Of a DNA stretch of 64,000 nucleotides, positions 37,310 through 61,872 are shown in pieces (position 1 is the stretch's first letter; each line of letters starts with the position of its first letter). A model generated the notes under the pieces. It was not told where the DNA came from. It was given only the letters and a program-made list of their open reading frames with translations, and did not search any database. The DNA is from Microbacterium arborescens (GTDB taxonomy: Bacteria > Actinomycetota > Actinomycetes > Actinomycetales > Microbacteriaceae). A program made the position numbers and the translations under genes. The stretch covers positions 434,001-498,000 of the forward strand of contig NZ_CP128474.1 in NCBI RefSeq assembly GCF_030369635.1, in the 5' to 3' direction.

Positions 37310-37327
37310 CCCTGTCGCATCACGTCG

Positions 37328-37414
37328 CGATACATCTGCAGGACCGGTGGTGCTGGTGATGCTTCGCATCGCGCGCTGAGCACCACCGGCCCCGCGACTC
37401 TGACAGGTGTGTCG
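37328..37414. repeat. 87-bp inverted-repeat element, copy 1
   Basis: Tips are CGATAC and GTGTCG. The left arm (37326-37358) is identical to copy 2 at 32 of 33 positions. GACCGGTGGTGCT pairs with AGCACCACCGGC across the centre. It starts 18 nt after the aminotransferase-like gene. Confidence 0.8.
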
Positions 37415-37470
37415 CCACCGCCACGGAAATGACCGTTGACACCGTCGCGCCCCGCCCGCTACCGTGCTGG

Positions 37471-37524
37471 TCATACGTAGAAGCACACCGTTGTTCTTCT
37501 ACGGATCGGCGCTCATACGTATGA
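37471..37524. promoter_or_regulatory. two TCATACGTA operators 42 bp apart
   Basis: A perfect 12-bp palindrome TCATACGTATGA lies at 37513-37524, and a half-conserved copy TCATACGTAGAA at 37471-37482, exactly 42 bp (four helical turns) upstream. Between them TAGAAG and CTTCTA form a further inverted repeat (37478-37501). TTGTTC at 37491-37496 could be the -35. The likely ligand is the LacI protein encoded at 43332. Confidence 0.65.
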
Positions 37525-37560
37525 CCGCCGAAACCGCACGCCACGTCACAGGAGACCGGA

Positions 37561-39204
37561 ATGCGCACTTCCCGAATCGCCGCCGCTGCCGCCCTCGCGA
37601 CCGCGGCGCTCGCTCTGGCCGCCTGCACGCCGGGCACCGCTACGAACACCGCCGCCCGAGCCGACACGCTGATCTACGGCAAGTCCGACGGCGGTACGAC
37701 CTACGTCCGCAACTACAACGTCCTCGGTCCCGCGACCGAGAAGGCCCCCAACGCCGAGCTGATCTACGAGCCGCTCGCTCGCATCGACTACGCCAACGGC
37801 GCCGTCGTCGAGCCGTGGCTCGCCGAATCGCTGCAGTTCGACGAGGCCGGCACGGCTCTCACGATCGAGCTGCGCCCGGACGTCACGTTCTCGGACGGCG
37901 AGACGATGGATGCCGACGACGTCGTCTATTCGCTCTCGCTCCCGCTCGAGCGGCCCGAGCTCAACCTCGCGGGCGTGACCTATGAGGCGGTGAGCAAGAT
38001 CGACGACGACACGGTTCAGGTCGACTTCGCCGAGCCCTCGTTCGCCGCGCTCAACCAGTTCGCCTCGAGCTCGCTGCCGGTCGTTCCCGAGCACATCTGG
38101 CGCGACCAGGACCTCATGAGCTGGACGAACCCCGACCCGGTGGGCACGGGCCCCTTCACGGTCGATGCGTTCGCGGCCCAGCAGGTGACGCTCAAGGCGC
38201 GCGACGACTACTGGGGCGGGCAGATGCCCATGACCTACCTCAAGGTGCTCGCGACGAACGGCGAGGCGGTCAAGGCGCAGCTGCTCCGCGGCGACGTCGA
38301 CTGGGCGCCGGCATCGTGGGCGGGTGCGGAGGAGGAGTTCGTCGCGCAGAACCCCGAGACGAACCTGTACCAGCTCTACGCGACGGGCGGGGCCTACTCG
38401 ATGATGTACAACACCGCGCAGCCGCCCTTCGACAACGCCGACCTGCGGCGGGCACTCGCGCTGTCGATCCCACGCTCGGACATCACCGCGACGCTCAACC
38501 GGCCGGGCACCGAGGCCGGCCCGACGGGCCTCGTCGATCAGATCTACGCCGACTGGATCGCTCCGGAGTATCGCGGTGTCGTGCAGGACGTGGATGCCGC
38601 CGCCGCGCAGGCCGCGCTCGCGGCATCCGGCTTCACGGTCGTCGACGGCGCTCTGGAGAAGGACGGGCAGCGGTACTCGCCCCGGCTGTCGTTCAACCAG
38701 GACTTCGGGTGGAACGCCTACGCCGACATCATGATCAACAGCTGGAAGTCGGTGCTGGGCATCTCGGTGGCCCCGGCCGGGGCTCCGGGGGCGACCCTCT
38801 ACGACCAGCAGAAGACGGGCGACTTCGACCTGACGATCGCCACGACCGGCGGTGCCGGGGTCTACGGCGTCTACGGCTTCCTCGACAGCCGGTACGTCGA
38901 ACCGCTCGGTACCGCGGCCGCGACCAACATCGGACGCTGGAACGACCCCGAGACCGACCGCATCCTGTCGGATATGACCCGGGCGGCAGACGAGGAGACG
39001 CTGCGCTCGCTCGGACAGGAGATGCAGCGGATCGTCGTCGACGAGGTTCCCTTCAGCCCGCTGTACAACTCGTACTGGTTCGTCGACGTCAACGCGACGC
39101 ACTGGACCGGCTGGCCGACGCCCGACGACTTCGACGCGGTGCCCTTCCCGAGCCTCGGGCCCGACACCGTCCGCACCCTGCTCTCGCTGAAGCCCGCGTC
39201 ATGA
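37561..39204 (+). CDS. oligopeptide/oligosaccharide ABC importer, substrate-binding lipoprotein
   Basis: A 547-residue family 5 solute-binding protein. The signal peptide ends in the lipobox LAAC with Cys22, so it is lipid-anchored outside the membrane. Family features include IYEPLARIDYANGAVVEPWLAESLQ and DGETMDADDVVYSL. Family 5 receptors bind peptides but in actinobacteria often bind cello- or manno-oligosaccharides; the downstream GH5 enzyme and LacI regulator favour the sugar option. AGGAGA precedes the ATG. It opens a seven-gene operon ending at 45997, with the GH5 gene just beyond. Confidence 0.92.
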   Translation: MRTSRIAAAAALATAALALAACTPGTATNTAARADTLIYGKSDGGTTYVRNYNVLGPATEKAPNAELIYEPLARIDYANGAVVEPWLAESLQFDEAGTALTIELRPDVTFSDGETMDADDVVYSLSLPLERPELNLAGVTYEAVSKIDDDTVQVDFAEPSFAALNQFASSSLPVVPEHIWRDQDLMSWTNPDPVGTGPFTVDAFAAQQVTLKARDDYWGGQMPMTYLKVLATNGEAVKAQLLRGDVDWAPASWAGAEEEFVAQNPETNLYQLYATGGAYSMMYNTAQPPFDNADLRRALALSIPRSDITATLNRPGTEAGPTGLVDQIYADWIAPEYRGVVQDVDAAAAQAALAASGFTVVDGALEKDGQRYSPRLSFNQDFGWNAYADIMINSWKSVLGISVAPAGAPGATLYDQQKTGDFDLTIATTGGAGVYGVYGFLDSRYVEPLGTAAATNIGRWNDPETDRILSDMTRAADEETLRSLGQEMQRIVVDEVPFSPLYNSYWFVDVNATHWTGWPTPDDFDAVPFPSLGPDTVRTLLSLKPAS

Positions 39205-40280
39205 CCGCGCTCGGCGGGGCTCCCACGCCCACGACGACGACGGCTCTGGCCGAGGTCTCGGCGCGCCGGAAGCCCCGTCGGCGCAGCGGCGCCTTCCTCC
39301 TCAAGCGCCTCGGGTTCTACCTGGTCGCGGCCTGGTCGGCGATCACGTTGAACTTCGTCATCCCGCGCCTCATGCCCGGTGACCCGTCGGCGGCGATCAT
39401 CGACCAGCTCGAGCGGGTGAGCGGTCAGGCGCTGGCGCCGGAGGCGCTCGTGTCGATCCGCGGCCTCTTCGGCAATCCCGACCAGAACCTGTTCGAGCAG
39501 TACGGGGCCTACATCGGCCAGCTGGCGCGATTCGACCTCGGGGTGTCGATCTCGAACTTCCCGGTGCCGGTCGCCGACCTCGTCGGCGCGGGCCTGCCGT
39601 GGACGCTCCTGCTCGTGGGCACGACGACGGTCATCTCGTTCGTGCTCGGCACGATGCTCGGAGTCGCGGTCGGATGGCGGGCCGGGTCGCGGTTCGACTC
39701 GATCATGACGCCGCTCATCACCTTCGTCTCGTCGGTGCCCTACTTCTGGATCGCCCTGCTGGCCCTGTGGCTGTTCGGCTTCGTCCTCGGCTGGTTCCCG
39801 CTCTCGGGTGGGTACGACCCGAACCTCCCGATCTCGCTCGAGCCCGCGTTCGTGCTGAGCGTCATGCAGTACGGCGCGCTGCCCGCGCTGACGATCATCT
39901 TCTCGGCGTTCGGGGGATGGATGCTGGGCATGCGCAACATGACCGTCACGACGGTGCGCGAGGACTACGTGCTCCTCGCTCAGGCCAAGGGCCTCTCGCC
40001 CGCGCGAGTGCGCTGGCGGTATGCGGCCCGCAACGCGATGCTGCCGCAGTTCACCGGCTTCGCGATGGCGCTCGGCGGCGTGGTCGGCGGGGCGCTGCTG
40101 ACCGAGATCGTCTTCAGTTACCCGGGCATCGGGTACCTGCTGTTCTCCGCGCTGCAGAAGCGCGACTACCCGGTCATGCAGGGCGTGTTCCTGCTCGTGA
40201 CCCTCACCGTCCTGCTGGCGAACCTCATCGCCGACTCGCTCTACGTGTGGCTCGATCCTCGCGTCCGAGAGGAGAGCTGA
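39201..40280 (+). CDS. ABC importer permease (DppB-like)
   Basis: A 359-residue permease of the DppB/OppB type with six transmembrane helices; a long cytoplasmic N-terminus of about 35 residues precedes helix 1. The segment VREDYVLLAQAKGLSPARVRWRYAARNAMLP is the EAA coupling loop and the GLGG-like end of the family is visible in GGVVGGALLTEIVFSYPGIG. It begins in an ATGA overlap with the binding protein. It forms the channel with the next gene. Confidence 0.92.
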   Translation: MTALGGAPTPTTTTALAEVSARRKPRRRSGAFLLKRLGFYLVAAWSAITLNFVIPRLMPGDPSAAIIDQLERVSGQALAPEALVSIRGLFGNPDQNLFEQYGAYIGQLARFDLGVSISNFPVPVADLVGAGLPWTLLLVGTTTVISFVLGTMLGVAVGWRAGSRFDSIMTPLITFVSSVPYFWIALLALWLFGFVLGWFPLSGGYDPNLPISLEPAFVLSVMQYGALPALTIIFSAFGGWMLGMRNMTVTTVREDYVLLAQAKGLSPARVRWRYAARNAMLPQFTGFAMALGGVVGGALLTEIVFSYPGIGYLLFSALQKRDYPVMQGVFLLVTLTVLLANLIADSLYVWLDPRVREES

Positions 40281-40281
40281 C

Positions 40282-41202
40282 ATGCGCGCCTCCCTGCTCC
40301 GCAACGGCAAGGTCCTCTTCGGAGTCGTCGTGCTGGCGTTCTTCGTGCTGCTCGCCCTGCTCGGTCCCGTGCTGCTGTCGGCGCTCGGCCTCGACGCCCG
40401 CGCCAACGACATCTCGGCGATCGCCGCGCCCCCGAGCGCCGCGCATCCGCTCGGCACGACCCAGTTCGGGCAGGACGTGCTCGCCCAGGTCATCGAGGGC
40501 GCCCGAGGCTCGATGTTCGTCGGGTTCCTCGGTGCCGCCATCGGCACCGCGATCGCGATCGTCGTAGGGGTGCCCGCGGGCTACTTCGGCGGCACGACGG
40601 GCAACCTGCTGAACTTCCTCACCAACATCTTCCTCGTCATGCCGGTGCTGCCGTTGATCTTCGTCGTCGCCGGCTACCTGCAGGGAACGGGCCTGGTCAT
40701 GATCGCGATCATCATCGGGGTGTTCGGTTGGGCGGGAGGCGCGCGCACGCTCCGCGCGCAGGCGATGAGCGTGCGCAACCGTGACTTCGTGCAGGCCATG
40801 CGGATGCTGGGCGAGCCGCACCGCCGCCTCATCTTCGTCGAGGTGCTGCCGCACCTCTACGGCTGGATCGCGTCGATGTTCCTCGGCGGCCTCATCGGCG
40901 CGGTCATGGCCGAGGCCGGGCTCGCCTTCCTCGGGGTCTCCGATTCGTCGGCGATCAGCTGGGGCACGATGATCCAGGCCGCGCAGCAGCAGAGCGCGGT
41001 GCTGCGCGGGCTGTGGTGGTGGTTCGTGCCGCCGGGCCTGTGCATCGCCCTCGTGGGCACGGCGGCCGCGCTCATCAACTTCGGCGTCGACGAGCTCGCC
41101 AACCCCAAGCTCCGGGCGGCGAGCCGGCGGGTCGCCAAGCGCACCGCCTCGGTGCGCCGTGAGGCCGCCGTGCTCGAGACGACCGGCGCAGAGAGGGCAT
41201 GA
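40282..41202 (+). CDS. ABC importer permease (DppC-like)
   Basis: A 306-residue DppC/OppC-type permease with an N-terminal helix (about 12-35), a periplasmic segment containing HPLGTTQFGQDVLAQVIEGAR (the DppC hallmark), and five further helices. The EAA loop is NRDFVQAMRMLGEPHRRLIFVEVLPHL. The ATG is 2 nt after the DppB-like stop with GAGAG upstream. It pairs with the DppB-like subunit. Confidence 0.92.
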   Translation: MRASLLRNGKVLFGVVVLAFFVLLALLGPVLLSALGLDARANDISAIAAPPSAAHPLGTTQFGQDVLAQVIEGARGSMFVGFLGAAIGTAIAIVVGVPAGYFGGTTGNLLNFLTNIFLVMPVLPLIFVVAGYLQGTGLVMIAIIIGVFGWAGGARTLRAQAMSVRNRDFVQAMRMLGEPHRRLIFVEVLPHLYGWIASMFLGGLIGAVMAEAGLAFLGVSDSSAISWGTMIQAAQQQSAVLRGLWWWFVPPGLCIALVGTAAALINFGVDELANPKLRAASRRVAKRTASVRREAAVLETTGAERA

Positions 41203-41203
41203 C

Positions 41204-42243
41204 ATGACGATGATCCAGGAGAGACGACCGGATGCGCCCTCGGATGCCGCGGGCTCGGATGTCCTGCTCGAAGTGCGGGGGCTCACGGTCGAGTACGCCG
41301 GTGCCACGGGCGCCGTGCGTGCGTGCGCCGACGTCACCTTCGATCTGCACCGGGGCGAGATCCTCGGGGTCGTGGGCGAGTCGGGGTCGGGCAAGTCGAC
41401 GCTCATCACCGCGCTCACCCGGCTGCAGCGGCCCCCGGCCGTCACGACGGCGGGGAGCGTGGTCTACCACCCCCGCGAGGGCGGCGCCGGGATCGATCTC
41501 GTGCAGCTCACCCCGCGGCGGCTGCGGGGACTGCGCTGGACGCGGATGTCGATCGTGCTGCAGAGCGCGATGGATGCCCTCAACCCCGTCACCCGCGTCG
41601 GAGAGCAGTTCGTCGACGTGCTGCGCACGCACGACCGCTCGATGAGCCGGGCCGCGGCCTGGGACGAGGCGCGTCGGCTGCTCGGGCTCGTCGGAATCTC
41701 GGCCGATCGTGCGCGGAGCTTCCCGCACGAGCTGTCGGGCGGGATGCGGCAGCGCGCGACCATCGCGCTGGCCCTCGCCTGCCGGCCCGAGCTCGTGGTG
41801 ATGGACGAGCCGACGACGGCGGTCGACGTCGTGATGCAGCGCCAGATCCTCGCCCAGGTTCTGCGGCTGCGCCGCGAGCTCGGATTCGCCGTCGTGTTCG
41901 TGACGCACGACCTGTCGCTGCTGCTCGAGCTCGCCGACCGCATCGCCGTCATGTACGCGGGCCGCATCGTCGAGCTCGCCGCGTCGCGCGAGATCTATCG
42001 CTCGCCGCTGCATCCGTACACGCAGGGGCTCCGCGACTCCTTCCCGCCGTTGCACGCCCCGATCGAGCGTCTCGAGGGCATTCCGGGAACGCCCCCCGAC
42101 CTGCGTCTGCTGCCCGCCGGCTGCCCGTTCGCGCCGCGCTGCGCCCACGCGTTCGACCGCTGCCGGTCCGAGTTGCCGCTGCTCACCCCGCACGGCGAGC
42201 GATCCGTCGCCTGCCATCTGCGCGAACCCGAGGAGGTCGGGTC

Positions 42244-42247
<4 letters not shown>
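41204..42247 (+). CDS. ABC importer ATPase (DppD-like)
   Basis: A 347-residue ATP-binding subunit. Walker A is GESGSGKS with Lys64; the signature is LSGGMRQRA; Walker B and D-loop are LVVMDEPTTAVD. The C-terminal oligopeptide-transporter domain with three conserved cysteines appears as GCPFAPRCAHAFDRC. The start at 41204 lies one base after the DppC-like stop. It energises uptake together with the DppF-like subunit. Confidence 0.93.
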
Positions 42248-43331
<1,084 letters not shown>

Positions 43332-43335
<4 letters not shown>

Positions 43336-44378
43336 CCACGCCCAGCACCCGCCCGCGCTCGATCCGCCAGTCCGACGTGGCCCGACTCGCCGGGGTGTCG
43401 CAGTCGGCGGTGTCACGCGTGATCAGCGGCGATGCCGCGCGTATCCCCGACGAGACGCGGCAGCGCATCCACGAGGCGATCGCCCAGCTCGGCTACGTCC
43501 CAAACCCCGTCGCCCGCAACCTCCGGGGCTCCCGCACGCAGTTGCTGGGGGTCCACACGTTCGAGCCGCTCTTCCCCAACGCCCGCGAGGGCTTCTACGT
43601 CGAGTTCCTGCTCGGCATCGAGCAGCGCGCCGAAGAGACGGGGCACGATCTCGTGCTGTTCAGCTCCACCGGTGACGGCGCCGGCGGGCGGCGGATCTAC
43701 CGCGACGAGACGAACCGGCTGCGCATCGCCGACGGCAGCGTGCTGCTGGGCGTCTCGCCCGACCGCGACGAGCTCGCCAAGCTCTGGCGCGAGGGGTACC
43801 CCTTCATCCACATCGGTCGCCGCGACGTCCCCGGCGCCGACATCCCGTGCATCATCCCCGACTACCGTGCGGCGGCCTCCGGGATCGTCGAACGCCTGCA
43901 CGCCCTCGGCCATCGCACCCTCGCGTACCTGCGCGACTCGATGGACGTCGAACCGTACGAGGACCGCCGCGCCGGCTATGCCGAGGCGGTGACGCGTCTC
44001 GGCATCGCGGACGCGTCGCCCGGGTACCGCGAAGGCCGGGCGGGGGTGCCCGACGAGGTCGTCGCCGCGCTCGTGGACGGACGCTGCACCGCCGCCGTCG
44101 CCGAGAGCGAGCGGGTGGCGGGCGAGCTGCGCAACCGGCTGATCGAGCGCGGGGTCGACATCCCGGGCGAGGTCTCGGTCGCCGTCCTCGAAGACACGAG
44201 CGCCGGGGACGTGCGGTGGGACGACCTCCGCATCCCGCGCCAGGAGATCGGCCGCATCGCCGTCGACCGCCTGATCGAGATGGTGGACGACCCGGATGCC
44301 GCCCGCGAGAGCACGTTCGTCGCGTGCGAGGTGGTCGCCGGCGGCACCGTCGCACAGGTCAGAAAGGACCGAGGATGA
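43332..44378 (+). CDS. LacI-family regulator of the oligosaccharide/GH5 operon
   Basis: A 348-residue LacI/GalR repressor inside the operon it probably controls. The helix-turn-helix is at about residues 12-33 (RQSDVARLAGVSQSAVSRVI) with hinge sequence PNPVARNLRGSRTQ. The GTG start overlaps the DppF-like stop by 4 nt and has GAGGAGG upstream. The effector domain shows FYVEFLLGIEQRAEETGHD. Its likely operators are the TCATACGTATGA sites at 37471-37524. Being in the operon, it would be coinduced, giving a self-limiting response. Confidence 0.9.
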
Positions 44379-45997
44379 CCGAGCCGATCGACCTGCTGAT
44401 CATCGGAGGCGGCGTCGGCGGCGTAGCCGCGGCCATCACCGCGACCCGCCTGGGCCTGCGTGTCGTGCTGACAGAGGAGTCGGGCAGGCTCGGCGGGCAG
44501 CTGACCTCGCAGGCGGTGCCGCCCGACGAGCACGCCTGGATCGAGCAGCCGACGACATCGCCGAGCTACGCCGAGTTCCGCCGCCGAGTCCGCGACTACT
44601 ACCGCCGCAACTACCCGGTCACGGCGGAAGCCGCCGCCGAGCCGATCCTCAACCCGGGGCGCGGCATCGTCAGCCGGCTCTGCCACGAGCCGCGCGTCGC
44701 CGACGCGGTCATCGACGAGATGCTCGCCCCGTGGCTCGCGACCGGCCGGCTGCGGATCCTCCGCGACCACGAGCCCGTCGCCGTCGACGTCGTGCGCGAC
44801 CGGGTCGAGGGCGTGGTCGTCCGCAGCCGGACGGGGGAGGAGACGGTGCTCGAAGCGCCGATCGTGGTGGATGCCACGGAACTCGGCGACCTGCTCGAGC
44901 TCGCACGCGTCGAGCACGTCATCGGGGCCGAGGGCGTCGACGACACCGGCGAGCTGCACGCTCCGGCCGTCGCCGATCCGATGGACCAGCAGGCGGTCTC
45001 ATGGTGCTTCGCGCTCGAGCACCGCGAGGGCGAGGATCACGTCGGCGACCGTCCCGCACGCTACGAGCACTGGCGCACGCACGTCGACTCGTTCTGGCCC
45101 GGCCCGCAGCTGTCGTGGACCGACATCGAGCCGATCGGGCTGCACGAGCGCACCCGGCCGCTCTTCCAGAAGGTCGACACCCCCGACGTGCCGTTCGACC
45201 TGTGGCGGTACCGGCGCGTCCTCGCCGCCGACAACTTCACCGGTGGCATCTCCGACGTGACGCTCGTCAACTGGCCGCAGATCGACTACTGGGAGGCACC
45301 GCTCCTCGGCGTCGACGCCGCCGCGGCCGACCGGGCACGCGCAGCCAGTCGCGAGCTGTCGGAGTCGTTCCTGTACTGGATGCAGACCGAAGCGCCGCGG
45401 CACGACGGCGGCACGGGCTACCCGGGGCTCCGCCTGCGCGGAGACGTCACCGGCACCGCCGACGGGTACGCCGACCGCGTCTACATCCGCGAGGCGCGAC
45501 GCGCGGTGACCGAGTTCCGCGTGCTCGAGCAGCACGTCGGCGTACAGGCCCGTGGCGCGGGGGCGGGCAGCGCCGTGTTCGACGACAGCGTCGGGCTCGG
45601 GCATTACCGCATCGACCTGCATCCCTCGACGGCCGGGCGCACCTACGTCGACATCGAGTCGTACCCGTTCCAGATCCCGCTGGGGGCACTGCTGCCGGTG
45701 CGCGTCGACAACCTGCTGCCGGCCGCGAAGAACATCGGCTCGACCCACATCACCAACGGCTGCTACCGCCTGCATCCGGTCGAATGGAGCATCGGCGAGG
45801 CCGTCGCCGCGCTTGCTGCCGTCGCGCTCGCCGAACGGGTTCCCCCGCGCGCGGTCCGGGCCCAGCCGCGGCTGCTCGACGACCTGCGCCGGGTGCTGAC
45901 GGACCGTCTCGGGATCACGCTGCGCTGGCCGGAAGAGGTGCGCACGCACCACTGGAAGCCGCGGGAACGAGCCCGCGAAATCGTCCCGTCGCGCTGA
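44375..45997 (+). CDS. FAD-dependent oxidoreductase
   Basis: A 540-residue flavoprotein of the FAD-dependent oxidoreductase group (PF12831-like). The dinucleotide-binding motif IIGGGVGGVAAA is at residues 9-20, and a second FAD contact is VVDATELGDLLELA at about 164-177. The C-terminal AAKNIGSTHITNGCYRLHPVEWSIGEAVA (about 451-479) is the closing FAD motif. Relatives often sit in glycan-use loci with unknown sugar or polyol substrate. There is no signal peptide, so it acts in the cytoplasm on an imported compound. It overlaps the LacI stop. Confidence 0.85.
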   Translation: MTEPIDLLIIGGGVGGVAAAITATRLGLRVVLTEESGRLGGQLTSQAVPPDEHAWIEQPTTSPSYAEFRRRVRDYYRRNYPVTAEAAAEPILNPGRGIVSRLCHEPRVADAVIDEMLAPWLATGRLRILRDHEPVAVDVVRDRVEGVVVRSRTGEETVLEAPIVVDATELGDLLELARVEHVIGAEGVDDTGELHAPAVADPMDQQAVSWCFALEHREGEDHVGDRPARYEHWRTHVDSFWPGPQLSWTDIEPIGLHERTRPLFQKVDTPDVPFDLWRYRRVLAADNFTGGISDVTLVNWPQIDYWEAPLLGVDAAAADRARAASRELSESFLYWMQTEAPRHDGGTGYPGLRLRGDVTGTADGYADRVYIREARRAVTEFRVLEQHVGVQARGAGAGSAVFDDSVGLGHYRIDLHPSTAGRTYVDIESYPFQIPLGALLPVRVDNLLPAAKNIGSTHITNGCYRLHPVEWSIGEAVAALAAVALAERVPPRAVRAQPRLLDDLRRVLTDRLGITLRWPEEVRTHHWKPRERAREIVPSR

Positions 45998-46055
45998 CGC
46001 GTCGGGACCGTGCGTCGGCGACGAGGCCGGCGCACGTGTCAGGAAGGACGGATCC

Positions 46056-47549
46056 ATGCCCCCTCTCTCCCACCCGCCCCACTCCGCCTCAGGCCGGCGC
46101 GGCCGGCTGCGGCGACGCCTCGGCGCCGTCGTCTCGGCGGTCGCCCTCATCGCCGGCCTCGCGTGGGTCGCGCCCACCGCAGCCGTCGCCGACGGCTCTC
46201 TCCCCGCCCTGTCGACGCAGGGGAACCGCGTCGTCGACGCCACCGGAGCCGACGTCGCCCTGCGCGGGGTGTCGGTGCTCGCCCCCGAGCAGAACGACCT
46301 CTGCGACTACTGCGACTCGCGGCCGACCTCCGAGATGATCGATCTCGCGGCGGCCTGGGGATCGAAGGTCGTGCGCCTGCCCGTCACCGAGATCTCCGCG
46401 ACCACCGACCTCGCCGCCTACGACGCCGAGTACATCGCGCCGTACGTCCAGCAGGCCGTCGATCTCGGCATCTACCTCATCATCGACCTGCACCTCGTCC
46501 GCGACTACGGCGACGGGGCGGGCGCCGTGCCGCGCTCGACGGTCGAGCGCTTCTGGGACTACATCGCGCCGCAGTACGGCGACGTGACCAACGTCGTGTT
46601 CGAGGTCTTCAACGAGCCCATCAACCCCGCGAGCTGGTCGACGTGGAAGGCCTACATCCAGCCGGTCGTCGACGGCATCCGGGAGACCGCGCCCGACACT
46701 CTCCTGCTGATGGGCTCGCCGCAGTGGAGCACGTTCGTCAACGGTGCCGTGAGCGACCCCATCGCGGGCGGCAACATCGCGTACGTCTTCCACATCTACC
46801 CCAACCAGGGGGCGCCGACGACGGTGCTGCTCGACAGCAAGTTCGGCAACGCCGCGCAGCAGATCCCCGTCGTCGTCACGGAGTTCGGGTGGAACCCGCC
46901 GGGGGAGTTCTCCGACAGCATCACCGCGGGCACGACTACCAACTGGGGCGTGCCGTTCCGCACGTACCTCGACGCCCGTCCGTGGATCGGGTGGCAGGCG
47001 TGGATCCTCGACAATTTCTGGAAGCCGCAGATGTTCGACTACGACTGGAACATCCTCGGTGGCGAGCACCAGGGGCAGTTCGTGAAGGACTGGCTCGGCG
47101 GCCTGCCCAACGTCTCTCCGTGCGCCTCGCACGACGGTCTCGGGGCCACGGTCACGGTGTCGTCGACGTACTCGGCCGCCTACCCGGGCTCGCGCCTCGT
47201 CGACGGCGACTGCACCGATGCGGGCCGGTGGCTCTCGGCCGTCGGAGACGCGACGCCGACGGCGACGATCGAGCTGGCCGCGCCGCAGCGGGTCAGTTCG
47301 CTCGGGGTCTACAGCGGGTTCGGCGGCGGGGCCGGAACCGGCGTCGTGCTCGTCGACTTCACGGTCGAGGTGCGCACCTCGGCGGGATGGCAGCAGGTCG
47401 CCGCCGTCACCGGCAACACGCAGGCCGCGCGCGAGGTCGCGATCGGGGTCGACGGGGTCGAGGCGGTACGCCTCGTGGTCACCAACCCCTCCGCCTCGAC
47501 CACCGAGGCCAAGATCGCCCGCGTCTACGAGCTCGCCGTGCGCGGCTGA
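46056..47549 (+). CDS. secreted GH5-type glycosidase with discoidin-like domain
   Basis: A 497-residue secreted glycoside hydrolase. A signal peptide with a long arginine-rich n-region (about 1-46) precedes the mature start near ADGSLPAL. The GH5 (cellulase/mannanase) clan-A features are RGVSVLAPE, the acid/base Glu187 in FEVFNEPI, and the nucleophile Glu276 in VVTEFGW. Residues about 365-497 form a beta-sandwich of the F5/8 (discoidin) carbohydrate-binding type. It would cut a beta-glucan or mannan outside the cell, providing fragments for the ABC importer encoded upstream. Exact subfamily is not determined. AGGAAGGA precedes the ATG. Confidence 0.87.
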   Translation: MPPLSHPPHSASGRRGRLRRRLGAVVSAVALIAGLAWVAPTAAVADGSLPALSTQGNRVVDATGADVALRGVSVLAPEQNDLCDYCDSRPTSEMIDLAAAWGSKVVRLPVTEISATTDLAAYDAEYIAPYVQQAVDLGIYLIIDLHLVRDYGDGAGAVPRSTVERFWDYIAPQYGDVTNVVFEVFNEPINPASWSTWKAYIQPVVDGIRETAPDTLLLMGSPQWSTFVNGAVSDPIAGGNIAYVFHIYPNQGAPTTVLLDSKFGNAAQQIPVVVTEFGWNPPGEFSDSITAGTTTNWGVPFRTYLDARPWIGWQAWILDNFWKPQMFDYDWNILGGEHQGQFVKDWLGGLPNVSPCASHDGLGATVTVSSTYSAAYPGSRLVDGDCTDAGRWLSAVGDATPTATIELAAPQRVSSLGVYSGFGGGAGTGVVLVDFTVEVRTSAGWQQVAAVTGNTQAAREVAIGVDGVEAVRLVVTNPSASTTEAKIARVYELAVRG

Positions 47550-47559
47550 CGCCCCACCG

Positions 47560-47646
47560 CGATACAGCTGCAGGACCGGTGGTGCTGGTGTCTGCTCCCG
47601 CCGCAGGCGGGACGACACCGGCACCACCGGTCCGACGGATGTATCG
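47560..47646. repeat. 87-bp inverted-repeat element, copy 2
   Basis: Tips are CGATACA and TGTATCG. ACCGGTGGTGCTGGTGT pairs with ACACCGGCACCACCGGT with one mismatch, and the central CCCGCC-GCA-GGCGGG forms its own hairpin. It starts 10 nt after the GH5 stop codon. Confidence 0.85.
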
Positions 47647-47720
47647 CCGTCGTCGCCGCGCCGGATGTCAACACGGCGGGCGAAACGGGGGCGGAAATAC
47701 TGACGCAACACGGCCCGGAT

Positions 47721-47726
47721 TAGGCT
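47721..47726 (+). promoter_or_regulatory. -10 TAGGCT, leaderless start of the ATP-grasp gene
   Basis: TAGGCT ends 7 nt before the ATG at 47734, without a ribosome binding site. Confidence 0.55.
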
Positions 47727-47733
47727 CGCATCC

Positions 47734-49398
47734 ATGGGTGACCTCTTCGACGGATACGGCTCGACGCTGACGCCGCGCAAGACCGTGTCGGGGGTGCCGC
47801 CGTACGACGAGATGTTCGAGGTCTCGGGCACCATGCCGGCTCCCGGGAGCTCGCGCGCCGCGTACCGCGAGCTGTACCAGGCGCTCGCGCAGATGACGCA
47901 GGAAGAGCTTCGCGGACGCACCGAGTCGCTCGCGAGCTCGTACCTCGCGCAGGGCGTCACCTTCGACTTCGCGGGCGAGGAGCGCCCGTTCCCGTTGGAT
48001 GCCGTGCCCCGGGTGATCGACTACGACGAATGGTCGCATGTCGAGTCGGGCGTGAAGCAGCGCGTGCGCGCGCTGGAGGCGTTCCTCGACGACGCGTACG
48101 GGCACCAGTTCTGCGTCCGCGACGGCGTGCTGCCCGCGAAGCTCATCGCCTCGTCGCAGTACTACTACCGCCAGGCCGCCGGCATCCGCTCCGCCAACGG
48201 CGTGCGCATCCAGGTCTCGGGCATCGACCTCATCCGCGACGAGCACGGCGAGATGCGCGTGCTCGAAGACAACGTGCGTGTGCCCTCGGGTGTCAGCTAC
48301 GTCATCTCGAACCGCCGGGTGATGGCGCAGACCCTGCCCGAGCTGTTCGTCTCGATGCGCGTGCGGCCCGTGGGCGACTATCCGAACAAGCTCCTGCAGG
48401 CGCTGCGCGCCTCGGCCCCGCCCGGAGTCGACGACCCCAACGTCGTCGTGCTGACCCCCGGCGTCTACAACTCCGCGTACTTCGAGCACACGCTCCTCGC
48501 GCGCCTCATGGGCGTCGAGCTGGTCGAGGGCCGCGACTTGGTCTGCTCGGGCGGCAAGGTGTTCATGCGCACCACGCGAGGTCCGCAGCGCGTCGACGTG
48601 ATCTACCGCCGCGTCGACGACGACTTCCTCGATCCGCTGCAGTTCCGCGCCGACTCGATGCTGGGCGCTCCGGGGCTCATGCTCGCGGCGCGCCTGGGCA
48701 ACGTCACGATCGCGAACGCCGTGGGCAACGGCGTCGCCGACGACAAGCTGCTCTACACCTATGTGCCCGACCTCATCCGCTACTACCTCGCGGAGGAGCC
48801 GATCCTCAAGAACGTCGACACGTGGCGGCTCGAGGATCCGGGCGCGCTCGAAGAGGTGCTCGATCGCCTCGACGAGCTCGTCGTGAAGCCCGTCGACGGC
48901 TCGGGCGGCAAGGGGCTCGTCGTCGGGCCCGACGCCTCTGCGGCCGAGCTCGACAAGCTCCGCAAGAAGCTCCTCGCCGATCCGCGCGGCTGGATCGCCC
49001 AGCCGGTCGTCATGCTCTCGACGATCCCCACGCTCGTCGAGGACGGCATGCGCCCCCGTCACGCCGACCTGCGACCCTTCGCCGTCAACAACGGCGAGGA
49101 GGTGTGGGTGCTGCCGGGCGGGCTGACCCGCGTCGCGCTGCCGGAGGGCCAGCTCGTCGTCAACTCCAGCCAGGGCGGCGGCTCGAAGGACACGTGGGTC
49201 GTCGGTGGCGACGCGCCCCGCACGGCCGAGTACAGCCAGGGGAACCTCGCCGGGCTCGTCGCCGATCAGGCCTCGACCCAGGCGATCCCGATCATCTACG
49301 ACGAGCAGGACGAGCCCGCCCACTCGCCGCAGGACCACCCCGGCGGCCTGAGCGAGCAGCAGGAACAGCAGCAGCAGACCGGGGGATCGACGTGCTGA
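47734..49398 (+). CDS. circularly permuted ATP-grasp protein (DUF404/DUF407)
   Basis: A 554-residue circularly permuted ATP-grasp enzyme. Conserved parts include VIDYDEWSHVESGVKQR (about 90-106), LEDNVRVPSGVSYV (about 176-189), and the nucleotide-binding glycine segment GSGGKGLVVGPDAS (about 389-402). The family is predicted to form amide bonds, possibly attaching amino acids or short peptides to proteins or small molecules. The C-terminal 30 residues are a glutamine-rich, probably flexible tail. The start is leaderless. It overlaps the next gene by 7 nt and heads the conserved ATP-grasp / alpha-E / transglutaminase trio. Confidence 0.92.
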   Translation: MGDLFDGYGSTLTPRKTVSGVPPYDEMFEVSGTMPAPGSSRAAYRELYQALAQMTQEELRGRTESLASSYLAQGVTFDFAGEERPFPLDAVPRVIDYDEWSHVESGVKQRVRALEAFLDDAYGHQFCVRDGVLPAKLIASSQYYYRQAAGIRSANGVRIQVSGIDLIRDEHGEMRVLEDNVRVPSGVSYVISNRRVMAQTLPELFVSMRVRPVGDYPNKLLQALRASAPPGVDDPNVVVLTPGVYNSAYFEHTLLARLMGVELVEGRDLVCSGGKVFMRTTRGPQRVDVIYRRVDDDFLDPLQFRADSMLGAPGLMLAARLGNVTIANAVGNGVADDKLLYTYVPDLIRYYLAEEPILKNVDTWRLEDPGALEEVLDRLDELVVKPVDGSGGKGLVVGPDASAAELDKLRKKLLADPRGWIAQPVVMLSTIPTLVEDGMRPRHADLRPFAVNNGEEVWVLPGGLTRVALPEGQLVVNSSQGGGSKDTWVVGGDAPRTAEYSQGNLAGLVADQASTQAIPIIYDEQDEPAHSPQDHPGGLSEQQEQQQQTGGSTC

Positions 49399-50324
49399 GC
49401 CGCATCGCCGAGAGCCTGTTCTGGATCGGACGCTACATCGAGCGGAGCGACGGCACCGCCCGCATCCTCGACGTGCACCTGCAGCTGCTGCTGGAAGACC
49501 CGTGGATCGACGAGGACACCGCCTGCCGGTCGCTCCTGTCGGTCATGGGCTCGTTCCCGCCCGAGGGGCTCGACACCGTGACCCGCCAGGACGTGCTGAC
49601 CCGGCTCGCCGTCGACCGCACCAATTCGTCGAGCATCGCGTACTCGCTGCAATCCGCGCGAGAGAACGCCCGCCGCGCGCGCGAGATCGTCTCGACCGAG
49701 CTGTGGGAGACCCTCAACACCACCTATTCGCGGATGCCGCGGCGCCTGAACGCCGAGAAGGTGCACGAGTTCTTCCACTGGGTGCGTGAGCGCGCGGCGC
49801 TCGCCGTGGGCGTCACCGACTCGTCGACGAGCCGCGACGAGGCCTGGCAGTTCTTCACACTGGGGCGCTCGATCGAGCGCACCGATATGACGGCTCGGCT
49901 GCTCGCGACCCGGTCGCTGACCGAGGAGTCCGGGCCGTCGTGGACGACGATCCTCCGCTCCTGCGGCGCGTACGAGGCATACCTGCGCACCTACCGCGGC
50001 ATGCCGAGCGCGCGCAACGCGGCGGAGTTCCTGCTGCTCGATCGTCTCTTCCCGCGCTCGATCATCCACTCGATCCAGCGGGCGGAGGAGTGCATGAGCG
50101 CGATCGATCCCGTCGCCGACCGCGTGGGGCACTCCAACGCCGTGCTGCGCGCGCTCGGCCGCATCCGCAACGATCTCGAGTACCGGCCGTTGGGCGAGAT
50201 CCTCTCGGAGCTGCCCGAGCACATGGACAACGTGCAGAAGGTGACCCGTGAGGCCTCCGAGGCGATCCGCAGTCGCTTCTTCCCCACCGCCGCGGAGCCG
50301 AACTGGATCGGAGAGACCTCGTGA
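49392..50324 (+). CDS. alpha-E domain protein (DUF403)
   Basis: A 310-residue all-helical protein of the alpha-E family (COG2307). It opens with the typical LSRIAESLFWIGRYIERSDGTARILD and ends with the conserved RIRNDLEYRPLGEIL segment. The fold is a helical bundle of unknown activity, always encoded beside the circularly permuted ATP-grasp gene, and probably binds its substrate or product. The GTG at 49392 overlaps the previous gene by 7 nt; its own stop overlaps the next GTG by 4 nt. Confidence 0.92.
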   Translation: MLSRIAESLFWIGRYIERSDGTARILDVHLQLLLEDPWIDEDTACRSLLSVMGSFPPEGLDTVTRQDVLTRLAVDRTNSSSIAYSLQSARENARRAREIVSTELWETLNTTYSRMPRRLNAEKVHEFFHWVRERAALAVGVTDSSTSRDEAWQFFTLGRSIERTDMTARLLATRSLTEESGPSWTTILRSCGAYEAYLRTYRGMPSARNAAEFLLLDRLFPRSIIHSIQRAEECMSAIDPVADRVGHSNAVLRALGRIRNDLEYRPLGEILSELPEHMDNVQKVTREASEAIRSRFFPTAAEPNWIGETS

Positions 50325-51166
50325 AGCGTCTGCGCATCGAGCACACGACCGGGTTCACCTACCCCGGCGACGTCGCCGCCTCCTACAACGAGGCGCGGAT
50401 GCTGCCGAGCTCGACCGATAGTCAGTTCGTGCTGAGCTCGCAGCTCGACATCGATCCCACGACCGCCGTCAACCACTACGTCGACTACTTCGGCACCCGC
50501 GTCGCCGCGTTCGACGTGCTCGCCGCGCACCGTTCACTCGCGATCACGGCCCGCTCGCTCGTCGAGGTGCGGCCTCGCCCGATCGAGCACCGGCAGATCT
50601 CGTGGGAGGACCTCGCCGACGAGACCGCGCGCTCGATCCACACCGTCGAGCAGCTCGGGCAGACGGCCCGCACGGCGCCGCATCCGGAGGTCGTCAAGCT
50701 CGCCCGCGAGATCGCGGCGTCGCACGACGAGCCCGGCCCGGCCGCGCACGCGATCGCGATCGGGATCGGGGATGCCGTCGAGTACATGCCCGGCGTCACG
50801 GGGGTGCACTCCACCGCCGCGGAGTCGTGGCCCGAGCGCAAGGGCGTCTGCCAGGACATCGCGCACATCACCCTCGGCGCACTGCGCAGCGTCGGCATCC
50901 CGGCGCGTTACGTCTCGGGCTACCTGCATCCCGACCCCGACGCCCAGGTCGGCGTCGCGGTGACGGGCGAGTCGCACGCCTGGATCGAGTGGTTCGCGGG
51001 CGACTGGCAGGGCTTCGACCCGACCAACAACGTCGAGATCAGCGACCGGCACGTGCTCGTCGGGCGGGGCCGCGACTACAACGACGTCCCGCCGCTGCGC
51101 GGGGTGTTCGCGGGCCCGTACAAGAGTGCGCTGCACGTGACGGTGACGATCACCCGCGAGGCTTGA
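50321..51166 (+). CDS. transglutaminase-like cysteine peptidase
   Basis: A 281-residue protein with an N-terminal beta-rich domain (KRLRIEHTTGFTYPGDV) and a transglutaminase core. The catalytic triad is Cys177 in RKGVCQDIAH, His219 in GESHAWIEWF and Asp233 in GFDPTNN. In bacteria this family mostly acts as a peptidase and is the third member of the trio, perhaps removing or trimming a tag laid by the ATP-grasp partner. Its last 17 bp overlap the end of the convergent exporter gene. Confidence 0.93.
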   Translation: MKRLRIEHTTGFTYPGDVAASYNEARMLPSSTDSQFVLSSQLDIDPTTAVNHYVDYFGTRVAAFDVLAAHRSLAITARSLVEVRPRPIEHRQISWEDLADETARSIHTVEQLGQTARTAPHPEVVKLAREIAASHDEPGPAAHAIAIGIGDAVEYMPGVTGVHSTAAESWPERKGVCQDIAHITLGALRSVGIPARYVSGYLHPDPDAQVGVAVTGESHAWIEWFAGDWQGFDPTNNVEISDRHVLVGRGRDYNDVPPLRGVFAGPYKSALHVTVTITREA

Positions 51167-52760
51167 CCTCCGCGGCATCCGTTTCGACCTGCTCGCGGCG
51201 CGCGCCACGGCCGAGGGAGGTCGTGGCCACGAGGCCCAGCACGAGGAACCCCGCCGCGGCGAAGCTCGCGGCGCGGGTGCCGTCCGAGAGGGCGGCCTTC
51301 GCGTCGGTGGCGATGTCGGCGGTCTGCGGCGAGGCCGCCAGGCCCGCGATCGCGCCGCCCGCGCTGTCGACGACGGCGCTGACCACGTGGTCGCGCTGCT
51401 CGGCGGGGATGCCGCGGTCGTCGAGCTTCGCGGTGAGGGCGCCCGATGTGGTCGAGAACAGGATGGTTCCGAGGATCGCGATGCCGAGCGCGGCGCCGAG
51501 CTGGCGAGCGGTCGACTGCGTGCCGGATGCCTGCCCGCCCGCGGCGACGGGGACGTCGGCGAGCACGACGCCGGTCAGCTGCGCGGTGGCGAGGCCGACG
51601 CCGATGCCGTAGACGAACAGCGCCGGGATGAGCGGGCCCCAGGTGGCGTCGGGGGCGACGACGAGGGCGACGCCGCCGACGCCGATGATCTCGGCGGCCA
51701 GGCCGGCGCGGACGATCCACACGGGTGCGACCTTGCCCGACAGGGCGCCGGCGAGCCCGCTCGCGACGAACGAGCCCGCGGCGAGGGCGAGCAGCACGAG
51801 GCCCGTCTGAACGGCTTCGAACCCGAGCGCGAACTGGAGCCACAGGGGGAGGGCCAGGATGATGCCGAACTCGCCGAGCGCGACGACGAGGGCGGCGAGG
51901 TTGCCGTTGCGGAACGACGGGATGCCGAAGAGCCCGAACGCGAGCAGCGTGGGCTTCCCGGCGCGGCGGCGCCGCACGCCCCAGACGACGAAGGCGGCGA
52001 TCGTGACGGCCGAGATGACGAACGCGACCGGCACGGGGGACAGATCCCACGGCCACGACGCGCCGAACAGCTCGGGGCGCTGGTCGACGGTCCACCAGCC
52101 GTAGCTTCGTCCCTCGATGAGGCCGAAGACGAGCGTGCCCATCGCGATGACCGACAGGATCGCCCCGACGACGTCGATCCCCGCGGCGCCGCCGCGCGAT
52201 TCCTCGACCGTCAGCAGGACGCCCACGACGATGAGGATGCCGAGCGGGATGTTGATGCCGAAGGCCCAGTGCCACGAGAACGTCGTCGTCAGCCAGCCGC
52301 CGAGCAGCGGCCCGACGGCGGCCATGCCGCCGATCGTCGAACCCCAGACGGCGAAGGCGATGCCGCGTTCGCGGCCGCGGAACGTCGCGTTCAGGAGCGA
52401 CAGCGTGGTCGGAAGGATCATCGCTCCGCCGACGCCTTGCACGAAGCGGGCGAGGATGAGCAGGTCGCCGGTCGAAGCGAGGGCCGCGCCGACCGAGGCC
52501 AGCGCGAAGACGACGACGCCTGTCAGCAGCATCCGGCGGCGGCCGACCCGATCGGCGATGCTGCCGAAGACGAGCAGCAGCGAGGCGAAGACGAGGGTGT
52601 ACGCCTCTTGCACCCACTGCACCTGGGTCGAGGTGATGCCGAGGTCGTCGACGATCGAGGGGACGGCGACGTTCACGATCGTGGAGTCCACGATGATGAG
52701 CGCCACCGCGATGCTGATGAAGACGAGACCCGCCCACCGGCGGCGTGCCGAAGCTACCAT
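51150..52760 (-). CDS. MFS drug exporter, DHA2 (EmrB/QacA) family
   Basis: A 536-residue proton-driven exporter with 14 predicted transmembrane helices. The first helix holds the DHA2 motif IIVDSTIVNVAVPSI, motif A is GSIADRVGRRRMLLTG (after helix 2), and helix 5 motif GPLLGGWLTTTFSWHWAFGINIPLG follows. Such pumps extrude toxic lipophilic compounds and antibiotics. The start at 52760 is leaderless (TATTCT 7 nt upstream) and lies beside a TAGCTAGCTA palindrome. No regulator is adjacent. The end overlaps the convergent transglutaminase-like gene. Confidence 0.93.
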   Translation of the reverse strand: MVASARRRWAGLVFISIAVALIIVDSTIVNVAVPSIVDDLGITSTQVQWVQEAYTLVFASLLLVFGSIADRVGRRRMLLTGVVVFALASVGAALASTGDLLILARFVQGVGGAMILPTTLSLLNATFRGRERGIAFAVWGSTIGGMAAVGPLLGGWLTTTFSWHWAFGINIPLGILIVVGVLLTVEESRGGAAGIDVVGAILSVIAMGTLVFGLIEGRSYGWWTVDQRPELFGASWPWDLSPVPVAFVISAVTIAAFVVWGVRRRRAGKPTLLAFGLFGIPSFRNGNLAALVVALGEFGIILALPLWLQFALGFEAVQTGLVLLALAAGSFVASGLAGALSGKVAPVWIVRAGLAAEIIGVGGVALVVAPDATWGPLIPALFVYGIGVGLATAQLTGVVLADVPVAAGGQASGTQSTARQLGAALGIAILGTILFSTTSGALTAKLDDRGIPAEQRDHVVSAVVDSAGGAIAGLAASPQTADIATDAKAALSDGTRAASFAAAGFLVLGLVATTSLGRGARREQVETDAAEVKPRG

Positions 52761-52762
52761 GA

Positions 52763-52782
52763 TTGCTAGAATAGCTAGCTAA
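52763..52782. promoter_or_regulatory. operator palindrome over the DHA2 exporter promoter
   Basis: TTGCTAG-AATAG-CTAGCTAA is an interrupted inverted repeat and contains the perfect 10-bp palindrome TAGCTAGCTA (52772-52781). It covers the exporter -10 hexamer TATTCT (52768-52773, minus strand). MarR- and TetR-type repressors use sites of this kind. Confidence 0.6.
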
Positions 52783-52816
52783 ATTGTGGATGCAAGATGT
52801 GGTTCGCGCGGCGCGA

Positions 52817-52849
52817 AAGCGGCCGGGCCCCGTCGGGAACCGGCCGCTT
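52817..52849 (-). terminator. terminator hairpin of the small acidic gene
   Basis: AAGCGGCCGG and CCGGCCGCTT pair perfectly over 10 bp with a 13-nt loop, 12 nt beyond the stop codon of the 52862-53083 gene. Confidence 0.75.
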
Positions 52850-52861
52850 CATGGATGCGGA

Positions 52862-53083
52862 TCAGGCGGGCGGGTCACCCGGGTCGAGGGTCTTCAGCAT
52901 GTCCTCCTCGGCTGCGTTGTCGGCCGTGAGCTCCTGCTCGGTGGTCTCATCGCCGCCGCGGGGTGCATCGTCGGTGATCGACTGCTCGGAGCTGGGGTCG
53001 TCGAGGTGACGGTCGCCGGTGGGCTCTTCGGACGGGATCGCGCTGTCGCCGGCGCCGCCGGCCGGGGTGTCGTGGCTGCTCAT
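52862..53083 (-). CDS. small acidic, probably disordered protein
   Basis: A 73-residue protein with very many Asp, Glu, Ser, Thr, Gly and Pro and almost no hydrophobic residues, so it is probably intrinsically disordered. The only helix-prone part is near the end (NAAEEDMLKTLDPGDPP). A TAACGT hexamer ends 7 nt before the ATG and a good hairpin follows the stop, both supporting a real gene. No family is recognised. Similar short acidic proteins are common in Microbacteriaceae as unannotated genes. Confidence 0.7.
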   Translation of the reverse strand: MSSHDTPAGGAGDSAIPSEEPTGDRHLDDPSSEQSITDDAPRGGDETTEQELTADNAAEEDMLKTLDPGDPPA

Positions 53084-53090
53084 GGTCGCG

Positions 53091-53096
53091 ACGTTA
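53091..53096 (-). promoter_or_regulatory. -10 TAACGT, leaderless start of the small acidic gene
   Basis: On the minus strand TAACGT ends 7 nt before the ATG at 53083. Confidence 0.5.
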
Positions 53097-53149
53097 CGCT
53101 CGCCGTCGCCGCCCGCGGCACCCCTTGACACCCGCGGGACGCCTGACGC

Positions 53150-53236
53150 CGATACATTCGTCGGACCCCTGTGGCTGGTGTCGTCTCGACAGCTGTTCGA
53201 GGCCACTCCCGCACCGCGGGCCCGACGAATGTATCG
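53150..53236. repeat. 87-bp inverted-repeat element, copy 3
   Basis: CGATACATTCGTCGG and CCGACGAATGTATCG form perfect 15-bp outer arms. Internal GGACC (14-18) and GCTGGTGTC (25-33) align with copy 2 without gaps. It lies 20 nt beyond the rhaB stop on the minus strand. Confidence 0.8.
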
Positions 53237-53256
53237 ACCACCGACGGCCGGACGGG

Positions 53257-54690: not shown

Positions 54691-54772
54691 CGCGAGTGCA
54701 CGGCCTGCCGCCGAGTGCACGACCTCGGAGCGTGCGGATGCCGTGCACTCGGCGCGTAGCCGTGCACTCGAG
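54691..54772. repeat. nested GAGTGCAC palindromes between rhaD and rhaB
   Basis: The 8-mer GAGTGCAC occurs twice (54694-54701, 54713-54720) and its complement GTGCACTC twice (54743-54750, 54763-54770), making an outer and an inner inverted pair. Arms extend to GCCGAGTGCAC / GTGCACTCGGC in the inner pair. Confidence 0.75.
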
Positions 54773-61734: not shown

Positions 61735-61820
61735 CTGCTGCCCCTCCCGCATCCTGCTGCCCCTCCCGCATCCTGCTGCCCCTCCCGCATCCTGCTGCCC
61801 CCGCATCCTGCTGCCCCCGC
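61735..61820. repeat. 19-bp tandem repeat after the rhamnose LacI gene
   Basis: The unit CTGCTGCCCCTCCCGCATC occurs three times exactly (61735-61791), then a 16-bp shortened unit and a partial one. It is strongly strand-biased, C-rich on the plus strand. Confidence 0.85.
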
Positions 61821-61823
61821 GAG

Positions 61824-61872
61824 GTCCCAGTTCGGCCGGTTCTGTGCGCCGCATTCCCGGCCGAACGGGGAC
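61824..61872. terminator. bidirectional terminator hairpin
   Basis: GTCCCA-GTTCGGCCGG pairs with CCGGCCGAAC-GGGGAC over 16 bp with one mismatch and a 17-nt loop, between the convergent LacI gene and the 61985-63883 gene. Confidence 0.75.

Follow-up and report, generated by a model that had tools for sequence, protein, structure and literature searches.

The window analysed here is a stretch of 64,000 nt from Microbacterium arborescens, positions 434001-498000 of the single 3,370,341-bp contig NZ_CP128474.1, and its subject is a family of short inverted-repeat elements set between genes. The flanking genes are ordinary: a class-III aminotransferase, a solute-binding protein, a GH5 cellulase, an ATP-grasp protein and an FGGY kinase. 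An earlier note, made from the sequence alone, had placed three such elements in the window; all three are present where it put them, and each is exactly 87 bp long. Genomes and loci are given below by their handles (G, L), the window genome being G000; M. arborescens in the comparisons denotes a genome separate from G000.

37328..37414 (genome 471328-471414), + strand: copy 1 (E1), 87 bp, right tip with one change, TGTGTCG
37328..37343, + strand: outer tip of the copy 1 left arm, element positions 1-16, spelled in a clade-specific dialect and mirrored at positions 72-87
37349..37359, + strand: inner core of the copy 1 left arm, element positions 22-32, similar across the clades inspected
47560..47646 (genome 481560-481646), + strand: copy 2 (E2), 87 bp, exact CGATACA / TGTATCG tips
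53150..53236 (genome 487150-487236), + strand: copy 3, 87 bp, exact tips

The CGATAC-type tips described in the earlier note are found as CGATACA at the left end of all three copies; on the right, copies 2 and 3 end in TGTATCG but copy 1 does not. Between copies 1 and 2 the left arms do differ at only 1 of 33 positions. The distances to a stop codon were correctly given for copy 1 (18 nt, open reading frame ending at 37309) and copy 2 (10 nt, ending at 47549), whereas the 20 nt reported for copy 3 lie on its other side, where the minus-strand FGGY kinase gene ends at 53257; relative to its gene, copy 3 is therefore reversed as compared with copies 1 and 2. Stretches of 99 nt fold strongly on both strands, with z scores of -3.9 to -9.6 and none of 200 shuffles as stable. 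The arms of copy 3, described as perfectly paired, are so over the outer 15 bp only, and the inner stem is broken.

An 87-bp element family in Microbacterium

Dyad-symmetric, non-coding, intergenic 87-bp elements occur in a number of Microbacterium species. In the window genome itself, a search with copy 2 returned three further full-length copies (E 4.4e-14 to 6.5e-12), and this search together with a fixed-length tip pattern gives nine intact 87-bp copies, at 135478, 471328, 481560, 487150, 655891, 2312676, 2748630, 3011029 and 3077835. Remnants lie near 3031878 (59 nt), 3109025 (one arm) and 301480 (one tip). A lack of further copies, one of the two outcomes by which the earlier note would have refuted the family, is thereby excluded. 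The nine copies agree pairwise at 51-68 of 87 positions, and exact CGATACA begins 14 of their 18 arms. Judged by reading the frames and flanks, all nine sit in gene gaps: three between convergent genes, four between tandem genes and one, at 3011029, between divergent genes, the left neighbour of copy 3 being not firmly called. Eight of the nine are 5-36 nt from a stop codon. With regard to chromosomal position, the half of the contig from 0.66 to 2.31 Mb holds no intact copy; the nine are spread over the other part, which runs from 2.31 Mb through the contig ends to 0.66 Mb.

A covariance model, which the earlier note had proposed, was built from the nine copies and run over 366 genomes of the genus with strict filters and at most 12 candidates scored per genome. 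It matched 53 genomes at E<=0.01, a threshold at which about four matches are expected by chance, and 36 of these also at E<=1e-5. With laxer filters and both strands counted, G000 gives 19 matches, G243 16, G178 40, G100 54, G032 20 and G358 19, which on halving amounts to ~8 to ~27 copies among these six carriers; G058 and G060, neither matched in the strict search, give one and two weak matches (E 0.0015-0.0028). G061 and G029, also unmatched under strict filters, give weak matches under the laxer ones. Among 20 further genomes, eight have a match at E<=1e-4, two of them genus members that the strict search had left unmatched. The length, as delimited by the model, is exactly 87 nt in 75 of 89 inspected copies, a count that leaves out L010, L051 and two weak matches (L093:1823 and L094:883).

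A scan of the family Microbacteriaceae matched 10 of 398 genomes at E<=1e-3, two of the 10 in Microbacterium itself. Other genera gave weak matches of uneven quality, which are not counted as proven members; at least one of them, L119, looks like coding sequence, and L304 in G029 looks like another palindrome. Viral contigs contained no exact match to one strict pattern. Several of the loci show further features. In L116, L118, L124 and L125 (another genus, g80), all weak matches, CAAATCAAGGACC-type tips seemingly occur also as extra copies beside the element; L303, L121-L123 and L127 have TCAGGAG-type tips, several of them inside A+T-rich ends; and in L111 (G032:C1:1557767-1558081) three elements stand in a row with an exact 114-bp period.

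Conserved patches and tip dialects

Each arm contains an outer tip of 16 bp and an inner core of 11 bp, with centres ~19 bp apart. This layout is evident from the mismatches between copies at orthologous sites, which we counted among A-type genomes, that is, those with CGATACATYCGTCGGAC-type tips: G000 and its seven nearest relatives by the ATP-grasp protein (95-100% identity, among the genomes searched). The count covers 40 pairs of 87-nt copies from A-type species, which are not independent of each other, and leaves out some further A-type orthologs. Seven orthologs fetched by their flanks alone were likewise compared with G000. Mismatch fractions are given first for the 40 pairs and then for the flank-only set.

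Tip: 0.030 (17/560); 0.122 (12/98)
Positions 8-16: 0.064 (46/720); 0.127 (16/126)
Core, positions 22-32: 0.076 (67/880); 0.188 (29/154)
Positions 17-21: 0.19 (76/400); 0.357 (25/70)
Positions 33-39: 0.173 (97/560); 0.347 (34/98)
Loop: 0.322 (116/360); 0.508 (32/63)

The flank-only orthologs keep the order of the 40-pair set, with a weaker contrast.

In a set of 38 copies, taken from 21 genomes, the pairing of positions 1-16 with 72-87 involves a wide range of pair types. The stem as a whole has a covariation of 0.340, as compared with 0.172 in shuffles and 0.05-0.11 in slid controls, relatedness not being removed. The earlier note had taken copy 3 to point to maintained base pairing, and this does not hold within the clade, where 285 base pairs have changed and only four of them on both sides with pairing in both copies. 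The absence of compensatory changes, named there as evidence against the family, is in part what is seen within the clade, while between clades the tips covary. Since the changes within the clade are mostly one-sided, sequence more than pairing is seemingly what is kept, and each arm appears to be held mainly by its own sequence, in two patches ~19 bp apart. The covariation between clades would then reflect a re-spelling of both tips.

Tips in other genomes read GTCACCATCCGTCGGA, CGTGTCGGATTTCGGA, GGTGACGTCTGCACGA, TGGCTCGTCTGCATGA and others. Over 69 copies of 87 nt from 25 genomes, with one copy taken per locus, tip identity (positions 1-7) is 0.879 within genomes and 0.551 between them, and the values become 0.659 and 0.426 when the seven A-type genomes are set aside; in neither case did any of 500 shuffles, which ignore relatedness, reach as high. 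Copies were grouped here by genome label alone, since clades B to E had been named after their own tips and a comparison by clade would be circular. For the core without the A-type genomes, the corresponding values are 0.737 and 0.718, a difference equalled in 171 of 500 shuffles (22 within-genome pairs). The change of tips can be followed at a single site, beside a gene of 244 aa that we take to be glutamine-amidotransferase-like. At this orthologous site of distant species the tips read CGATACA in G178, G226 and M. arborescens, and a full element in G165 differs from these in both tips, CGCGACGTCCGCACGA / TCGTGCGGACGTCAGG; for G165 the gene has 67-69% amino acid identity and the downstream DNA 72-74%. 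At the same site G000 holds a decayed 59-nt copy. A second such orthologous site involves G178 with G100 and G175 (BLAST of flanks only). The tip behaves as a dialect that follows the genome and is spelled differently between clades, which suggests recognition by a postulated protein.

Turnover and the explanations weighed

The presence of copies at given sites differs between strains, a comparison of copy positions between strains having been suggested in the earlier note. G243 (Microbacterium sp. AG238), by its kinship label of the same species as G000, lacks the copies at 135478 and 655891, and the alignments show replaced or deleted gaps; in the reverse case, a whole element of G243 is represented by one arm only in G000 (half copy in L010). 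Elements occupy these sites in other species, so the differences are most simply explained by loss. Over seven sites and seven A-type relatives, counted by hand, both flanks adjoin in 37 of 49 site-genome pairs, are both found but apart in four, and are represented by one flank only in eight; the 37 adjoining pairs comprise 22 with an element, two with a remnant and 13 with none. Folding was possible for 12 of the 13 gaps that have no element, and in 10 of them the fold is no stronger than in shuffles (z above -2); the exceptions are 487150 in G186 (M. radiodurans), with another hairpin (z -2.3), and one 448-nt gap. G341 keeps a shortened hairpin at 135478. Gain is illustrated by G100, in which two copies ~215 bp apart are alike over the element and ~7 bp beyond while their outer flanks are unlike, as evidence of duplication of the element only.

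The reading that we favour, with a probability only slightly above one half (about 0.52), is that of a REPIN-like element, an 87-bp intergenic dyad family read by a postulated trans-acting factor; REPINs are inverted doublets of repetitive extragenic palindromic (REP) sequences. In this proposal the tip and the core would be two recognition patches, and the factor would read both patches in both arms. Its tip specificity would have shifted between clades, with the copies in each genome following. New copies would be infrequent and made, as with REPINs, by duplicating the unit; old copies would persist in place for long and be lost by deletion. The data show the family, its recurrent length, the two conserved patches, the clade dialects, the orthologous site with different tips, the losses within one species and the lack of a Y1/RAYT transposase in the genomes tested; the trans-acting factor, its role in copying and its recognition at the level of DNA are what we infer. 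A stronger form is more tentative and, in our view, falls short of even odds: that these are a new class of small actinobacterial DNA element, spread and maintained by a sequence-specific non-Y1 factor whose tip specificity drifts between species, the copies being re-spelled in both arms and at orthologous sites.

Several observations weigh against the favoured proposal. No RAYT, the Y1 transposase (PF01797) associated with REPs, was found at E<=0.001 in 36 genomes, 18 of which have element matches; 5 of 14 control genomes were positive. The search for a partner gene beside the copies yielded no factor: an all-against-all comparison of reading frames within 1.5 kb of the copies in the fetched loci gave recurring clusters that come from orthologous sites; among the clusters of at least three loci within the 40 largest, none recurs at non-orthologous copies, if single additional members (L109 and L099, for example) are set aside. 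Clean insertion was not seen: the nine copies have direct repeats of only 0-3 bp at their exact borders, and where two strains of one species differ, the missing copy looks deleted. Segmental duplication, flanks included, accounts for some of the closely spaced copies. In G341 the single copy inspected in full has degraded tips. The core, too, is slightly more alike within genomes when all are taken (0.784 versus 0.748, 0/500 shuffles), and the neglect of relatedness applies to the tip and core shuffles alike. Most copies were found by models built on tips, which favour conserved tips, and the contrast is weaker, though still present, in the flank-fetched orthologs. Finally, 83 of the 285 changed pairs stay paired through a one-sided change when G-U is allowed, which leaves room for some role of base pairing.

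A rival explanation is that the elements act as RNA at transcript 3' ends, either as bidirectional terminators or as mRNA-stabilising hairpins readable from either side. The strong hairpins on both strands, the proximity to stop codons, the three copies between convergent genes, the covariation of tips between clades and the G-U-tolerant changes are all consistent with this, as are the other hairpin at the empty G186 site and the shortened one in G341. However, no intrinsic terminator (G+C-rich stem followed by a T-run) was found at the elements in 37000-54000, where two such sites lie elsewhere, and one copy stands between divergent genes. Mismatches between the arms, such as CTGCAGG versus CGTCGG, persist at one site in several species; 10 of the 12 folded empty gaps are no better than shuffles, and one of the two exceptions is the 448-nt gap. 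In addition, termination does not need tips that are common to a genome. Rfam gave no match above the gathering score in 37000-54000. We consider the RNA explanation unlikely, and the terminator function raised in the earlier note unlikely as a common one; its other suggestions, palindromes of the REP or MITE (miniature inverted-repeat transposable element) type or sites for a (nucleoid) DNA-binding protein, point to the right area, and the family of structured repeats that it proposed is real.

Equally unlikely, in our estimate, is that the copies are binding sites of a chromosome-organising or regulatory protein of the host, kept for the host's benefit and without mobility. The tip and core are the parts least changed at orthologous sites, the dialect is common within a genome and the length is nearly fixed, all as such sites would have it. 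Against this stand the turnover data: two of nine copies absent in a strain of the same species, one G243 copy reduced to one arm in G000, the spread in copy number from ~8 to ~27 among the six carriers and the 13 empty and two remnant sites among the 37 adjoining pairs.

MITEs are short non-autonomous inverted-repeat elements in intergenic DNA, and a MITE derived from a classical transposon, one that has terminal inverted repeats and makes target duplications, would agree with the inverted arms of ~39 bp, the small size and the intergenic copies. As to an autonomous transposon with the same terminal repeats, no gene recurs within 1.5 kb of the copies among the clusters described above, whole genomes not having been scanned for transposons. 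The border repeats reach at most 6 bp, and this only with 3-bp shifts and partly inside the element, and no target duplication is seen by eye at the compared sites with and without an element. The tips of transposon ends are usually their most conserved part, whereas here they are the part that differs between clades, and we regard a classical MITE as improbable.

Some copies sit where Microbacterium genes were gained, lost or rearranged, and two such places are in the window:

37415..47559, no strand: accessory segment between E1 and E2, ~10 kb, with a solute-binding protein, a transporter permease and ATPases, a LacI regulator and a GH5 cellulase
53149..53150, no strand: synteny break in G226 (Microbacterium sp. 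Yaish 1), at the outer left tip of copy 3

G226 has the aminotransferase, one element and the ATP-grasp gene, the 10-kb segment being absent; in G178 (Microbacterium sp. SMR1) and G130 the border genes adjoin without segment and without element. The M. arborescens counterparts of E1 and E2, assigned by their flanks, are identical to each other at 85 of 87 positions, so that recombination between direct copies would explain in a simple way how the segment was lost. The likeness of the copy 1 and copy 2 left arms thus has another reading, as that of direct copies flanking the segment. At the synteny break, the homology of G226 to the window ends at 53148 on one side and at 53134 on the other, with the pieces 1.07 Mb apart. 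Their partner pieces are neighbours in G000 and G178, and no element was found at the partner break point, for which reason an inversion between two elements is rejected. In G164, copy 3 and the FGGY gene are ~8 kb apart. Recombination sites for gene exchange, comparable to attC and by which element-flanked segments are gained and lost, would fit these cases but are the least probable explanation, since E1/E2 can be explained by direct repeats undergoing ordinary homologous recombination, no element stands at the partner break in G226, and both flanks adjoin in 37 of 49 pairs, a figure without a random-gene-gap control.

Other repeats were also observed. L251 (G000:C1:2779800-2782100), where the partner break of the G226 rearrangement falls, contains at 1186-1558 another palindromic repeat, three times in a gene gap, made of TGGCAGCTCGCGCCC and an inverted partner like GGGCGCCAACTGCCA; similar-looking hairpins occur in G178 (L250). 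Just upstream of the FGGY gene, at window positions 54692-54771, two CGAGTGCACG-type motifs face two inverted ones; the motif occurs three times in L148 (another species), and its count in the window is not above chance. At 61735-61826 the 19-bp unit CTGCTGCCCCTCCCGCATC is repeated directly and in tandem over a short stretch, in several registers.

Comparison with known systems

A literature search by titles and abstract openings, mostly without subscription journals, returned no description of this family. The likeness to MITEs is that of a short inverted-repeat intergenic element; the Microbacterium element differs in having no clear target duplication, a nearly fixed length and ends that differ between clades. 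DNA uptake sequences are ~10-12 bp long, are present in hundreds to thousands of copies, and occur as inverted pairs near gene ends in clade-specific dialects. Inverted pairs near gene ends and clade-specific dialects are shared by the element, but its exact tip pattern is found only inside elements: G000 has six matches, and 57 other genomes have no match.

The closest resemblance that we see is to the REPs and REPINs. In the REP literature compared here, as far as it was drawn on, REP-type palindromes are described mainly from Proteobacteria and are tied to RAYT enzymes. REPs are given as 20-40 bp long with an unpaired GTAG or CGTC tag at one end in the part of PMC3733652 used here, and the placement near the 3' ends of convergent and tandem genes that it describes is shared by our elements. 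The ends of the Microbacterium element differ from such unpaired tags, the terminal bases being mostly paired: a GTAG/CTAC tag is present in only 2 of 89 copies (~terminal 24 nt including 6 flanking nt), and CGTC was seen by eye only inside the stem of some dialects. According to the same part of that source, the CGTC REPs are likewise without a known dedicated transposase. REP classes follow species and their RAYT genes in the portion of PMC3686654 considered.

The REPINs of Pseudomonas fluorescens SBW25, as presented in the part of PMC3116915 considered here, are inverted REP doublets with two conserved 16-bp ends and a looser spacer. The Microbacterium element is alike in its inverted, conserved 16-bp ends, its less conserved spacer, its typical unit length within a group, its extragenic position and its capacity to form a hairpin. 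It differs in that its genomes are without PF01797 (0/36), the GTAG tag is lacking and single arms are not hairpins (18 arms of the nine copies, mean folding z +0.36 versus shuffles), and further in its second conserved inner patch and in copy numbers of tens at most in the genomes counted. Compensatory changes, called common in REPINs in that part of PMC3116915, are rare within the clade here (4/285). An actinobacterial family without RAYT, of near-fixed length and with a clade-specific tip code, would point to another enzyme or binding protein, and it offers a natural series of co-varying sites by which the recognising protein can be sought. While we do not assign the element to the REPINs, the comparison suggests that it may work like one.

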